The position numbers and the translations under genes are program-made. Source: Chloroflexota bacterium (GTDB taxonomy: Bacteria; Chloroflexota; UBA6077; SHYK01). From it: a stretch of DNA of 44,959 nt. Below are positions 22,866-44,959 of the stretch, one piece after another (positions within the stretch are counted from its first letter, which is position 1; the number at the start of each line of letters is the position of its first letter). Location: positions 1-44,959 of the forward strand of contig DASRDP010000109.1 of NCBI GenBank assembly GCA_035652535.1. Reading direction: 5' to 3'. A model generated the notes under the pieces. The model made no database searches. It was not told the DNA's origin and worked only from the letters and a program-made list of their open reading frames with translations.

Positions 22866-23768
22866 GCGAGCGACCGCGTCGCTCTGCTCGCCTCCGCCGC
22901 CTCCATGCACGCCAACGGCTCCGACCACGTGCCCGTCGACGATGATCGGCACGCCACCCCCGCCTGCAAGGATCTTGAAGTGTGCGATCTGTCGGATTTC
23001 GGCGAGGCGGTCGGCCGACAAGGTCCTGCCCACATCGAGACTTGGGCGCTGAAAGTTGAGCGCCGTGAGCGCCTTCGCCTCCGCCAGATCCGGGGCCATG
23101 GGCGGCGCGCCGTCCATGCGGTCCATCTGCATGAGCTGGCCGGCTTCGTCGACGACGGCCACGCCGACGCGATACCCGCGCCGCTCCGCATCGGCGATCG
23201 CGCGGTCGGCGACGCGCCGCGCGGCGTCGAGGGAATGGGGGAGGTCGTCGGTCCGTTCTTCGATCCGGGGTCCCACGAGGCGCTCCACGTCGGGATGCTG
23301 GTTCTGATAAGGAATGCCGAGCGCCTGGGAGATGATGTAGTCCTCGACGTTCGCGCCGGCGAGAGGGCTCAGATCGACGTCCGGCACCTCGGTCCACGGC
23401 CCTATCCCGCCGCCCGTCGATAACGCGCCGACCACGCGCCCGTTCTTGCGGATCGGCAAGGCGCCCGGTCCAGGAAAGATGTCGTCGCGCATGAGGCGCT
23501 GCATCGACGCGAACACGGCGGGCCGGTCGCGCCACTGCGTGGCGCTGCGCGCGCTGGGGGCTCGCTGGACCGCGGCGACGTACGCCTTCGCACGAGAGAT
23601 CCACATCGACGACGTGGGCCCTTCCCCGATGCGGGAGGCAGAGACGACGCCGCCCCCGACATCCACGATGACAAACGAGCCACCCTGCTTCAGGGATCGG
23701 GCGAGCGCGAGCGCGCGATCGATCGTCGTTCGCGCGTCGGTGAGCGTCAAGTCCGGTTGAAAGCTCAT
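22848..23768 (-). CDS. Tandem GlcG/HbpS (DUF336) heme-binding-like protein
   Basis: A 306-residue protein with two copies of the GlcG/HbpS domain, about residues 8-140 and 155-300. Repeated landmarks are the first-half opening (DARTTIDRALALARS, then FVIVDVGGGVVSASRIG) and the second-half counterpart (AARRVADRAIADAERRG, then VGVAVVDEAGQLMQMDRMDG). Each half ends in the family's glycine-rich loop (GALSTGGG; GAVGVHGGGGG). HbpS-type proteins bind heme or flavin-like ligands and often sit in catabolic operons; the role here is unknown. Most members have one domain, so the tandem form is notable. AGGAGG lies 11 nt before the ATG. No signal peptide is seen. Confidence 0.87.
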   Translation of the reverse strand: MSFQPDLTLTDARTTIDRALALARSLKQGGSFVIVDVGGGVVSASRIGEGPTSSMWISRAKAYVAAVQRAPSARSATQWRDRPAVFASMQRLMRDDIFPGPGALPIRKNGRVVGALSTGGGIGPWTEVPDVDLSPLAGANVEDYIISQALGIPYQNQHPDVERLVGPRIEERTDDLPHSLDAARRVADRAIADAERRGYRVGVAVVDEAGQLMQMDRMDGAPPMAPDLAEAKALTALNFQRPSLDVGRTLSADRLAEIRQIAHFKILAGGGGVPIIVDGHVVGAVGVHGGGGGEQSDAVARAAAER

Positions 23769-39260: not shown

Positions 39261-40253
39261 TCAGTTGGCAAAGTCCTCGGTGAACATCCGCCCGCGTCCA
39301 TCCGCGACCGCCGCGCCGATCCCGACGCGGGTGTACTCGGGTCGAAGGATGTTGGCGCGGTGCCCCGGGCTCTCCATGAGCCCTTGATGGGCCAGGGTCA
39401 CCGTGGGCGCCAGCGCCAGATTCTCGCCGGCCACGGAGAAGCGAACGCCCGCGGCCCGCAGCCGCGCGAACGGTGTGTCGCCCTCCGGCGTGTCGTGGGC
39501 GAAGTAGCCACGGCGCAACATGTCGGCGGCATGCTCGCGTGCGACGCCGTCGATCGCCGCGTCGCGCGCCAGCGTCCCCAACCCGCGCCGCGTCCGCTCT
39601 TCATTGAGCAAGCTCAGCATCTGCGTTTCGGCGGCTTCGTCGAACGTCGGCGACTCGACTCGAAAGTCCAGGTCGATGCGCTCGGTCTCGTCCGGCTTGA
39701 CGGTGAGGAGCGTCAGCGTTTCGGTGAGCGGCTCGCCCACGACCTCGCGCGCGAACCGGTCGAAAGACGCCGTCTGCTCGACCAGCACTTGAGCCATCTG
39801 CGAGGCTCGAATTCCCTCCCGGAGCTGCGCGAAAGCGAGGAAGCCGGGGACGCCCGGGGCCAGCGGTGGGACGGAAAGAATGATGGTCAGGACGATTCCC
39901 GCCACGAGGACGCCTTTGAGGGCGGACGGGATGAGGCTCAACAGGATGTCGAGTGCCGTGCCGCGGATGAGGCTGGCGAACGGGCGCATCACGAGGCGTC
40001 CGATGATCGACACGATGAGACCCGTGACGATCCAGAGGACTGCAAAGGCCAGCGGATTGGCCAGCAGCTCGGGGATCGGCCAGGTGCTGGAAGCCCACTC
40101 CGCGACCTGTGGGTAGAACGTGAGGCTGATGATCAGGGAGAGGACGAATCCGATGAGATCGATGACGGCGCCGAGGAACCCGCGCCGGACACCATCCGCG
40201 ATGTTCCACGCCACGACGAGGAGGATGGCGATATCCACCCAGCTGTCGGGCAA
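39261..40253 (-). CDS. CvpA-like membrane domain fused to CAP (SCP/PR1) domain
   Basis: A 330-residue two-part protein. Residues 1-130 hold four hydrophobic helices of the CvpA type (WVDIAILLVVAWNIADG, RRGFLGAVIDLIGF). Residues 205-330 form a complete CAP domain: LLNEERTRRGLG, REHAADMLRRGYFAHDTPEG, GENLA, and HQGLMESPGHRANIL with the cavity histidines. The CAP part is probably outside the cell; CAP proteins bind lipids or act in envelope processes. The start is TTG 40253 with GGAG 8 nt upstream. It is divergent from aspS. Confidence 0.87.
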   Translation of the reverse strand: MPDSWVDIAILLVVAWNIADGVRRGFLGAVIDLIGFVLSLIISLTFYPQVAEWASSTWPIPELLANPLAFAVLWIVTGLIVSIIGRLVMRPFASLIRGTALDILLSLIPSALKGVLVAGIVLTIILSVPPLAPGVPGFLAFAQLREGIRASQMAQVLVEQTASFDRFAREVVGEPLTETLTLLTVKPDETERIDLDFRVESPTFDEAAETQMLSLLNEERTRRGLGTLARDAAIDGVAREHAADMLRRGYFAHDTPEGDTPFARLRAAGVRFSVAGENLALAPTVTLAHQGLMESPGHRANILRPEYTRVGIGAAVADGRGRMFTEDFAN

Positions 40254-40284
40254 CCTTCAACTCCGACGCGCTCTTGGCGGTCAG

Positions 40285-40290
40285 TATAAT
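40285..40290 (+). promoter_or_regulatory. -10 box upstream of aspS
   Basis: A consensus TATAAT, about 97 bp before the aspS ATG, in the divergent gap with the CvpA-CAP gene. No convincing -35 at 16-18 nt upstream, so the call rests on the -10 alone. Confidence 0.35.
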
Positions 40291-40386
40291 GGCGCGTTCC
40301 CCCCTCGCATGTCCGGGCGGCCAGCGTGTGTATTGCGCCTCGGCCGTGTGGGAGAATGTCGGGCAGCGAGTTCGCATGGAGGCGAG

Positions 40387-42159
<1,773 letters not shown>

Positions 42160-42171
42160 TCGAGACTGCCA

Positions 42172-43926
42172 TTGCCTGACCCATCGCAGCCGCCGCCGAC
42201 CCAGCGCGTGTCCTCGAGCAGCCTCGGCGAAGACCACATCGTGTTCGTGATCGAGGACGCGGTCGCCGAGGTCGAAGGATCCTGGACGGACGATCGCGGC
42301 GCGCTCCCCGACCCCGCGCTGTCTCGCGTCGTTCTGTACGGCTGGGCGACGGGAGCCCTCACCGCGGGTGACATTGCGTTGCGCTCGTCCAGCGACGTGG
42401 GCGCGCGATACCTGCTCCGCGGCGCGTCGACCTCGTTTCGGGAGGTGCGTGCATTCCGCGAAGCACGGTATGCGGAGTTGCGGAGCCTGTACTCCGAGGT
42501 GTTCGAAGTGTTGGCCCTTGCGGGAGCCAGGCGACTGGGGCGAATCGCGCTGCCGATGGCGAGCGGTCGCGATCGGCGCCAATTGGATGAGCTTGCCATG
42601 GCGTGCGACGAGCTGGCGCGCGAATGGCTGGACGAAGCACAGGCCGCCGATGAGGACGACGATCAGGACCTCGCGGAATTCCCCGATCGGGACTATCCAG
42701 GTTCGCTGGCCTCGCGAAAGACGCGCCGCTTAGCCTTCGCGACGTCGCGCGCCGCTCGCGCCTCGGTGTCGGGCCGATTCGGGCGCCCCGCCGGGCCGAC
42801 GACTTTCAACGCGTTGGAGCTGAGCGCCGGCCGCGACGCGCGACGGGGGATTCGGGCCCCCTCCGCTGCTCGCCTCCCGCGCTCGCGGACGCGGATCGTC
42901 GGCGCAGCCGCCAGCGCCGCCGTGTTGTTCGTAGGGCTCGCGCTGTTGCGCTGGGTCTCGACATCCGTTCCGGTCGCGAATGGGGAGCCGCGCGTGGTCG
43001 CTCGCCAACCGACTCCGATGGGAGCGCAGCCGACCATCGCCGAACCGTCCCGGGTGATTCCACCCACGGATACGCTGAGGACCGCCGCGGCCGCGACCGA
43101 GCTGGCCGATGCGCGGGATGAGGCGATGGGCCTCGCGGCGCAGTCGCTGGCGAGCGATGATCTTCAGGCTGCCCGCGACTTCTACTTCCTCGCCGTCCAA
43201 TCGGTTCCATCCGATCCAGAAGCGAGGGACCGGCTGCGCCAGGTGGAGACGGCTTTGAGCGTCGATCAACCGCGATTGAACTGGGACGATACGCTGAGCG
43301 ACCTTCAGGAGCTTCGCGATGCCGCGCCGGCATCTCCAGCGGTGCTCCAGGCGTACGTCACCGCGCTCGTCGGCGCCGGGCGCGCGGCCCTGCTGTCGGG
43401 TGATCGCGATCGGGGCGTCGGGTACTGCGGCGAAGCCGTTCGCTGGCTACCGGGGCGCGATGATACCCAGGGGTGTCTGCGCCTGGCCAACGGCGAGACG
43501 GCGACCGCGACGCCAACGCCATCCTCGACCGCGACGCCGAGCCCGACCGCGTCGCCGACGTTGTCGGCTCTCATCCAGCAGACTCCCCAGCCTGGCGATG
43601 TACCCACGGCGGGCGGCGCTGCGCCGCCGCTGGAGGTCGTGTTCTCGGGCGCCTGCCAGCCCGCTCCCGGCCGCCCCAACGCGGCGGGCCTGATTCGATT
43701 GAACGGGGTGGTCAGCTCGGCGGACGGCCCGGTGCCGAACTACCGACTCATTGCCACCGCGAAGAGCCCCTCCGGACAGGCGACGGTCGTCGCGAATGCG
43801 ACCTACCTCACGCCGATCTTTCAGATCCAGCAAGCGGTTCCGGACTCGGGCCCCTACAGCGTCACCGTCACTGTCGCCAAGGACGGGTACACGGCTGGGC
43901 AGTCCAGCGTCGACGTGACGTGCTAG
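42172..43926 (+). CDS. Domesticated transposase N-domain fused to membrane-TPR-beta protein
   Basis: A 584-residue protein of unusual make-up. Residues 18-165 match the N-terminal region of IS1182/IS5-type transposases (DUF772): LGEDHIVFVIEDAVAEV, VVLYGWATGALTAGDIALR, a Phe-Arg-Glu-Val-Arg motif, and GARRLGRIALPMASG. The transposase catalytic Asp normally found in ALDG is replaced (ALPM), and the rest of the DDE domain is missing. A basic stretch leads to one membrane helix (242-262), a TPR-like repeat region (305-440), a Thr/Pro linker (443-466) and an Ig-like beta domain (485-584). The start is TTG 42172 with a weak ribosome site. Probably a sensor or regulator; function unknown. Confidence 0.75.
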   Translation: MPDPSQPPPTQRVSSSSLGEDHIVFVIEDAVAEVEGSWTDDRGALPDPALSRVVLYGWATGALTAGDIALRSSSDVGARYLLRGASTSFREVRAFREARYAELRSLYSEVFEVLALAGARRLGRIALPMASGRDRRQLDELAMACDELAREWLDEAQAADEDDDQDLAEFPDRDYPGSLASRKTRRLAFATSRAARASVSGRFGRPAGPTTFNALELSAGRDARRGIRAPSAARLPRSRTRIVGAAASAAVLFVGLALLRWVSTSVPVANGEPRVVARQPTPMGAQPTIAEPSRVIPPTDTLRTAAAATELADARDEAMGLAAQSLASDDLQAARDFYFLAVQSVPSDPEARDRLRQVETALSVDQPRLNWDDTLSDLQELRDAAPASPAVLQAYVTALVGAGRAALLSGDRDRGVGYCGEAVRWLPGRDDTQGCLRLANGETATATPTPSSTATPSPTASPTLSALIQQTPQPGDVPTAGGAAPPLEVVFSGACQPAPGRPNAAGLIRLNGVVSSADGPVPNYRLIATAKSPSGQATVVANATYLTPIFQIQQAVPDSGPYSVTVTVAKDGYTAGQSSVDVTC

Positions 43927-44129
43927 CGATGCCCGGCGGCGCTGGTCGCAACTGAACGCGGAGCGGCCAAGTGATCGGCTCACACGAACACGCGGGGAGC
44001 GTTTCGCTCTTGAAACAGTCGTTGTGCCGTTCGCTCGGCAACGTCACAGGATAAATGCGTATTCGTTTTCATAGCGTAACACGCAAGAAGCGGCGCTCCC
44101 GCGGCGACAGCTCGATTGTTGGAGAATCC

Positions 44130-44540
44130 ATGAAGCGATCCGTCCTGGTCGTCGACGATGATCGTGGTGTTCGGGAGATGCTTGCCGACGCACTGTGCTG
44201 CTGTGGCTACGAAGCGCAGACGGTGGCCAACGGACTGGAAGCGCTCGCGGAGGTCATGCGCGACGCTCCGGATTCGGTGGTGCTGGACATGCACAGGCCG
44301 AGCGTGGGAGGGCTGGCTTTCGCCCACGGCCTTCGCGATTTGGGAATGCGCGTCCCGATTCTCGTCGTGAGCAGCACTGGCGAAGCGCATCGCTGGGCGG
44401 ACGTGATCGGGGCGGAAGGCTATTTGAACAAGCCGTTCGACCTCACCCAGCTACTCAGCCACGTCGACCGTCTGTGCAGAACCGGGGTTCGCGCCGGCCT
44501 GTCGCTCGTGCCGATGCAGTCCACGGCCGATCGCGACTGA
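44130..44540 (+). CDS. Single-domain response regulator (CheY-like receiver)
   Basis: A 136-residue stand-alone receiver domain. Acidic pocket Asp10/Asp11 in VVDDDRG, phosphoacceptor Asp53 in VVLDMHRP, conserved Ser/Thr at 82/83 in VVSSTGEA, and Lys101 in LNKPFDL. No output domain is attached, and no histidine kinase is in the window. It is cysteine-rich early (LCCCGY). GGAG lies 5 nt before ATG 44130. The 203 bp upstream contain small hairpins (GAGCG-TTT-CGCTC near 43999) but no clear gene. Confidence 0.92.
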   Translation: MKRSVLVVDDDRGVREMLADALCCCGYEAQTVANGLEALAEVMRDAPDSVVLDMHRPSVGGLAFAHGLRDLGMRVPILVVSSTGEAHRWADVIGAEGYLNKPFDLTQLLSHVDRLCRTGVRAGLSLVPMQSTADRD

Positions 44541-44612: not shown

Positions 44613-44959
44613 CCGGCCGCGCCTGACGGTGCGGCCGGCCTCTCCCCCTGCGAGGGCCGAGGCGCACGAGTAAACTCCCTCCCCTGCCGCAGCGGGGGAG
44701 GGTCTCCCCCTGCGAGGGCCGAGGCGCACGAGTAAACTCCCTCCCCTGTCGCAGCGGGGGAGGGTGGGGGTGGGGGCGACCCGACGCTCCCCCCTCACCC
44801 GGCCGCGCCTGACGGTGCGGCCGGCCTCTCCCCCTACGAGGGCCGAGGCGCACGAGTGAGCTCCCTCCCCTGCCGCAGCGGGGGAGGGTGGGGGTGGGGG
44901 CGACCCGACGCTCCCCCCTCATCCGGCCGTGCCTGACGGTGCGGCCGGCCTCTCCCCAT
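44613..44959. repeat. 124-bp tandem repeat array, cut by the window end
   Basis: Units begin TCTCCCCCTRCGAGGGCCGAGG at 44641, 44703, 44827 and 44951. Spacing is 62, 124 and 124 bp: one half-length unit followed by two full units and a truncated third. The tail of an earlier unit (GGCCGCGCCTGACGG) is at 44615-44629. Each full unit holds two inverted repeats, CCGCACC/GGTGCGG-like and CTCCCCC/GGGGGAG-like. Minus-strand frames through it (PTPTLPRC and similar) are repeat translation, not genes. Confidence 0.85.

Follow-up and report, generated by a model that had tools for sequence, protein, structure and literature searches.

Can the N-terminal part of a transposase be captured by a bacterial membrane protein, and what would it do there? 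The question is raised by an open reading frame near the end of a Chloroflexota contig (GenBank assembly GCA_035652535.1, contig DASRDP010000109.1), the whole 44,959-nucleotide stretch analysed being called the window below. An earlier note on this DNA had delimited the frame and its strand correctly (Table 1) and had read it as a transposase N-terminal domain captured into a membrane protein. The gene is the sole copy in its own genome (G000; 4.45 Mb, 168 contigs); two family-level relatives are a protein of genome G025, here called L002, and another in G027. Searched whole against Pfam and NCBIfam, the protein shows no domain above cut-off, the entries of the Pfam scan being just TetR_C_16 and Chap-C, both at E 0.18. 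We regard the origin of its N-module from an IS1182 transposase N-terminal part, and its overall architecture, as near certain.

Table 1. Features of the gene and its upstream neighbour in the window.
Feature	Position	Strand	Basis or remark
Whole ORF, 584 aa	42172..43926	+	TTG start, 12 nt past the stop of the aspS ORF
N-module, residues 15-205, from IS1182-family transposase N-terminal part (DUF772-type region, first RNase-H strand, helical insertion after first catalytic Asp)	42214..42786	+	Profile and tblastn homology; AlphaFold2 (AF2)
Pro128-Met129 codons at the first catalytic Asp-Gly place of IS1182	42553..42558	+	Alignment
Arg-rich linker, weakly conserved, residues 206-241	42787..42894	+	25% identical to L002 (20 codons aligned, within residues 206-243)
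Single membrane helix, N-terminus inside (predicted), residues 242-260	42895..42951	+	Hydropathy 2.09 over 19 residues; K/R charge; helix in model
TPR-like helical domain, residues 299-439, Cys pair C419/C435	43066..43488	+	AF2, Foldseek, conservation
Thr/Pro-rich linker, residues 444-484	43501..43623	+	Sequence; pLDDT under 50 over most
Beta-sandwich, possibly Ig-like, residues 485-584	43624..43923	+	7 strands, pLDDT mostly 71-89
aspS ORF (aspartyl-tRNA synthetase), upstream neighbour	40120..42159	+	Pfam tRNA-synt_2 E 1.7e-117 within 40390-42159; same neighbour in G025

The evidence for this origin begins with the NCBIfam model of IS1182 transposases, NF033551, which matches the N-terminal part given alone at E=0.0058 (residues 15-127, model positions 15-141), a score under the curated cut-off. 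With tblastn, the whole protein matched 6 of the 29 genomes of the class: its own, the two same-family relatives (G025 and G027), and three that carry IS1182 transposase N-terminal parts (G005, E=5.3e-8; G002, 2.0e-7; G007, 7.7e-7). The G005 element lies above the NF033551 cut-off and contains DUF772 and DDE_Tnp_1 by Pfam, and a profile of this single element placed our frame at the top of the 246 window ORFs with 32.2 bits, the runner-up scoring 5.3. Together, the NF033551 match, the tblastn matches, the classification of the G005 element by cut-off and by Pfam domains, and its single-element profile constitute the independent chain of homology. A profile of 21 IS1182 N-terminal parts gave higher scores (52.9 bits for the window protein and 63.0 for L002, against 9.2 for the best of 10,000 shuffles), which are not independent because the source matches were themselves found by profile search; the 21 were hand-chosen from those matches, with duplicates and L018, L022, L024, L031 and L036 left out. 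Loci selected by NF033551 scored 28.6 and 36.4 bits, where the shuffles did not exceed 10.1; 4 of the 12 loci had a usable frame, the frames were picked by the 21-sequence profile, and two of the elements already belong to that profile's set.

At the level of the phylum, a profile of the window protein and its two relatives matched 29 of 400 genomes. Among the 35 places listed, with at most four candidates scored per genome, 3 are the proteins themselves and 31 fall within model positions 3-215, the remaining one (G251, five internal stops) looking like chance; where the frame beneath an N-only match was read, it proved to be an IS1182-type transposase, either intact or truncated. The alignment starts at a helix that precedes DUF772, covers the DUF772 motifs and the strand of the first catalytic Asp, and continues into the acidic and helical IS1182 insertion, ending at about residue 205. 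The IS1182/DUF772 resemblance proposed earlier holds as homology, and its extent exceeds the 165 residues then given by about 40. The profile match to PF05598 (DUF772) that had been suggested as a check was not found at E<=10, either in this protein or elsewhere in its genome, which rules out a Pfam-level DUF772 assignment. Both facts, the missing PF05598 match and a weak NF033551 score under cut-off, are what might be expected if the likeness were a product of chance or composition, an explanation that the shuffle controls and a tblastn E of 5e-8 contradict; the companion idea, that the fusion is an assembly artefact, is countered by the recurrence of this joint in an independent genome, from another genus, and of its C-side in a third. 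As far as the tests reach, chance and artefact are refuted, and we give them only a very small residual probability.

Compared with an IS1182-family transposase (NF033551; PF05598 DUF772 plus PF01609 DDE_Tnp_1), the window protein is homologous over residues 15-205, the helical insertion included, but differs in having no DDE core, a replaced catalytic Asp, and an added membrane helix with outside domains. The earlier reading of the catalytic position as Pro-Met is borne out by the alignment with IS1182. L002 keeps an Asp at this position (LDPRG), so that its loss in the window protein is incidental and does not define the event; judged from the sequences, the defining change is the missing DDE core rather than the single Asp residue. 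Pfam detects no DDE family in the window protein. A remnant DDE frame was sought in or just after the gene and none was found; within the window the top match (E 0.025) lies at 23401-23577. In place of the DDE domain, prediction and models put a membrane helix, TPR-like helices, a Thr/Pro linker and a beta-sandwich, much as the earlier note had described. With its catalytic core gone, the protein cannot transpose or cut DNA.

By tblastn, the gene is present in 3 of the 5 genomes of the family, and none of the remaining 24 class genomes showed a match over the protein's whole length; its absence from G024 (76% complete) and G026 (88%) counts for little as evidence. The suggested search for the same architecture in other Chloroflexota thus returned two family-level relatives. 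In G025, a genome of another genus, the protein is full length to the contig edge and has the same joint between N-module and membrane protein; in G027 it is readable from about residue 148, most of the N-module being lost at the contig edge (WHTR01000035.1, Chloroflexi MAG Dino_bin42, which comes from a study of Centrosaurus fossil bone, PMC8067395). In both genomes where the upstream side is readable (G000 and G025), aspS lies directly upstream, the ATG start of the G025 gene overlapping the aspS stop. Although aspS was found in 26 of the 29 class genomes, the gene follows it in G000 and G025 alone among the loci listed. An ancestral aspS-linked version devoid of the N-module was also looked for, and none occurs among the loci listed, at least three of which have fewer than 140 bases downstream. 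Two scans of IMG/VR and a promoter scan yielded nothing.

The N-modules of the window protein and L002 form one clade (99/98). Their alignment has 68 identical residues in 183 columns, 34 of them common in IS1182 and 34 new, the latter including W58, D67, R83, T87, R93, E97 and R136; the place of T87 is a Pro in 21 of 21 IS1182 sequences. One clade that combines inherited with newly shared residues points to one capture, followed by change and then by constraint. The conservation and dN/dS check proposed earlier agrees, pN being below pS both in the N-module (38% identity; pN 0.458, pS 0.700) and in the TPR part (residues 309-440; 58% identity; pN 0.320, pS 0.795), with dS saturated and the ratios thus indicative. 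The better conservation of the TPR part is what one would expect if the N-module were a passive inside anchor or an evolutionary passenger, with the outside TPR part and beta-sandwich as the working part. Against this, the N-module frame has survived at 38% identity with pN below pS, and 34 new residues in common are hard to expect of a passenger; since the N-modules share later changes, such a role is disfavored and we consider it unlikely. We are instead highly confident of a single capture in the ancestor of this small family, in which an IS1182 N-terminal part was fused to a membrane helix with an outside part, later changes came to be shared, and the frame stayed constrained behind aspS. 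With the joint in two genomes, its C-side in a third and shared later changes, one capture can be followed.

The 20 residues before the membrane helix contain 7 K/R and those after it 2, from which the transposase module is predicted to lie inside the cell. The G025 protein agrees (6 before, 2 after), and the G027 frame carries no charge signal (0 and 1). Hydropathy and charge thus favor the cytoplasmic placement that had been proposed for the module, and homology, clade and membrane-helix prediction concur in the broader proposal, a transposase N-terminal domain captured into a bitopic membrane protein.

For the outside half, AF2 modeling of residues 236-584 from a two-row alignment (mean pLDDT 72.7, pTM 0.44) yielded the membrane helix, together with seven more helices and a sandwich of seven strands. 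The seven helices show the repeated pairs of the TPR fold, and Foldseek matched the model to TPR chains including 2vyi (E 8.5e-4) and to the designed cage 8ump (E 2.7e-4), at modest E-values and with a TM by query that is low because the model is multi-domain. The sandwich drew nanobody and filamin-domain matches mixed with others. Pfam names neither a TPR nor an Ig domain in the window protein. C419 and C435 are invariant across all three proteins. When residues 309-438 and their relatives were used as a profile, with at most ten candidates scored per genome in the search results listed, 39 of 400 phylum genomes matched at E<=0.01, nearly all of them weakly, as is usual for TPR profiles.

Among the matches listed for the phylum, the non-orthologous protein that fits this outside profile best is a G025 membrane Ser/Thr kinase, composed of a kinase domain (PF00069), a membrane helix, a TPR-like stretch and a Thr/Pro tail. 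Its outer part scores 30.3 bits, against 13.6 for the best of 10,000 shuffles; among 18 kinase frames scored from the 19 loci found in G000, G025 and G027, it alone is clear, the next reaching 5.2 bits. Such an outside part therefore does occur on a signaling protein. Like the window protein, this Hanks-type kinase (L107/L111) joins an inside domain through a membrane helix to a TPR-like stretch with a Cys pair and a Thr/Pro tail; its inside domain is PF00069, whereas the window protein has no protein kinase domain and carries the transposase part. On this comparison with one kinase, the layout resembles that of a membrane signaling protein in which the kinase would have been exchanged for a transposase module. 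G000 contains 9 Pkinase matches at E<=1e-10, G025 8 and G027 2, and their outside parts are very varied. In the window's own genome, the membrane Ser/Thr kinase L121 (G000:C143) ends in a Cys-to-Cys Ig-like stretch. A link between this end and the Ig-like end of the window protein was considered, the two being similar by eye, and was dropped at 9.0 bits against a best shuffle of 14.5.

What the inside module does is approached through its ancestry and surface. The N-terminal part of IS1182-type transposases presumably binds the ends of the element. The AF2 model of the N-module (pLDDT 77.1, pTM 0.70) is all helical save two short bridges, and ends in a long helical hairpin of lower confidence (residues 135-169 and 175-203, the second helix at pLDDT of about 53-64), and leans toward the IS1182 fold because the alignment rows are mostly IS1182. 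Sequence search found no solved structure related to the IS1182 N-terminal part, and fold searches with the model did not rise above chance (lowest E 0.5; highest Z 5.0, for globins), a result compatible with a known fold. The core residues Y56, G61, F95, G118, L122 and G123 are kept and catalytic-site residues are changed. Of the basic residues, K67, K131 and K139 are lost or reversed in both the window protein and L002, with K67 turned to D and K139 to D or E, and E97 is new in both; R96 is kept from IS1182, and R83, R93 and R136 are newly common to both. Net charge over residues 18-127 is -3 in the window protein and +1 in L002, compared with an IS1182 mean of +0.8, so there is no overall basic enrichment. 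A simple loss of basic character was likewise set aside, the net charge being not clearly different from that of IS1182.

We infer the case for DNA binding from ancestry, the kept R96 and the new R83, R93 and R136; the changes of K67 to D and of K139 to D or E, together with E97 and the net charge, speak against it. The same surface can be read otherwise: after the same capture, the inside module may now be a protein-interaction or pairing platform that ties a cytoplasmic partner to the outside TPR scaffold and makes no contact with DNA. The long hairpin predicted for the IS1182 insertion, the lost or reversed lysines, and a kept core around a changed catalytic site would suit such a platform; the new shared arginines, which suggest a charged ligand, and the absence of any linked partner gene save aspS do not. 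A CadC-like membrane-tethered regulator is, in our view, the most likely function, at a probability still somewhat below one half, and the protein-binding adaptor is nearly as likely.

The protein arose once, by the fusion of an IS1182 N-terminal part to a membrane helix; the part taken over includes the first catalytic position with the helical insertion behind it and lacks the DDE core. Beyond the helix came an outside part of TPR-like helices and, in the window protein, also the Thr/Pro linker and beta-sandwich. As a DNA-binding regulator, the protein would respond on the outside to a signal or a partner. The single helix would pass this on by altering how the inside module pairs or where it sits, and that module would keep a remodeled basic face, bind DNA and act as a membrane-tethered regulator. 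The whole statement, the capture together with CadC/ToxR-like working, comes close to an even chance yet does not reach it, its functional half being inferred. Only tentatively, and with less conviction than for the regulator or the adaptor, do we describe the protein as a membrane-anchored bacterial transcription regulator whose DNA-binding domain derives from IS1182 and whose outside sensory part is of the membrane-kinase kind, that is, as a one-protein signaling system.

Among known systems, the likeness to CadC and ToxR is one of working: a cytoplasmic N-module, one membrane helix (predicted, N-terminus inside) and an outside domain of sensory type. Their OmpR-type winged helix is absent from the window protein by Pfam. 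CadC is a membrane-integrated activator according to PMC7888679, PMC6320335 and PMC3096576. The window protein also resembles transposase-derived host genes, in which a transposon-encoded domain is likewise reused in a host protein and no transposition is involved. The literature describes such reuse in eukaryotes and, as TldR, in bacteria. In animals and plants, the fusion of host with transposase domains is well recognized as a source of regulators; to our knowledge, clear bacterial cases are few, and TldR is presumably of transposon origin. In open-licence PubMed Central, we found no paper pairing DUF772 with tetratricopeptide and none on an IS1182 membrane fusion. Host reuse of transposase parts is thus known, and a bacterial membrane protein that carries an IS1182 N-module, not found in that collection, is unusual. 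If the regulator reading is true, a bacterial host-transposase fusion would make up a one-protein signaling system; in any event the protein provides a catalysis-free IS1182 N-module, usable for testing what that domain binds.

Apart from aspS, the neighbors of the gene are not shared among the genomes: a receiver-domain gene lies downstream in the window, and the G027 copy stands near frames that we take to be Usp-like and IMPDH-like. The downstream gene (44055-44540, +) encodes a stand-alone response-regulator receiver domain (Response_reg E 9.8e-19) and is not kept beside the G027 copy. On the opposite strand, adjoining aspS, one frame (39261-40253, -) combines a CvpA-type membrane domain (Colicin_V E 1.5e-17) with a CAP domain (E 1.2e-16) and is thus a further membrane fusion. 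The contig ends in a tandem G+C-rich repeat (44641-44957) built of 62- and 124-base units; with 125 bases of it as the query, the genome yielded 35 matches, whole or partial, and this dispersed repeat probably broke the assembly there.
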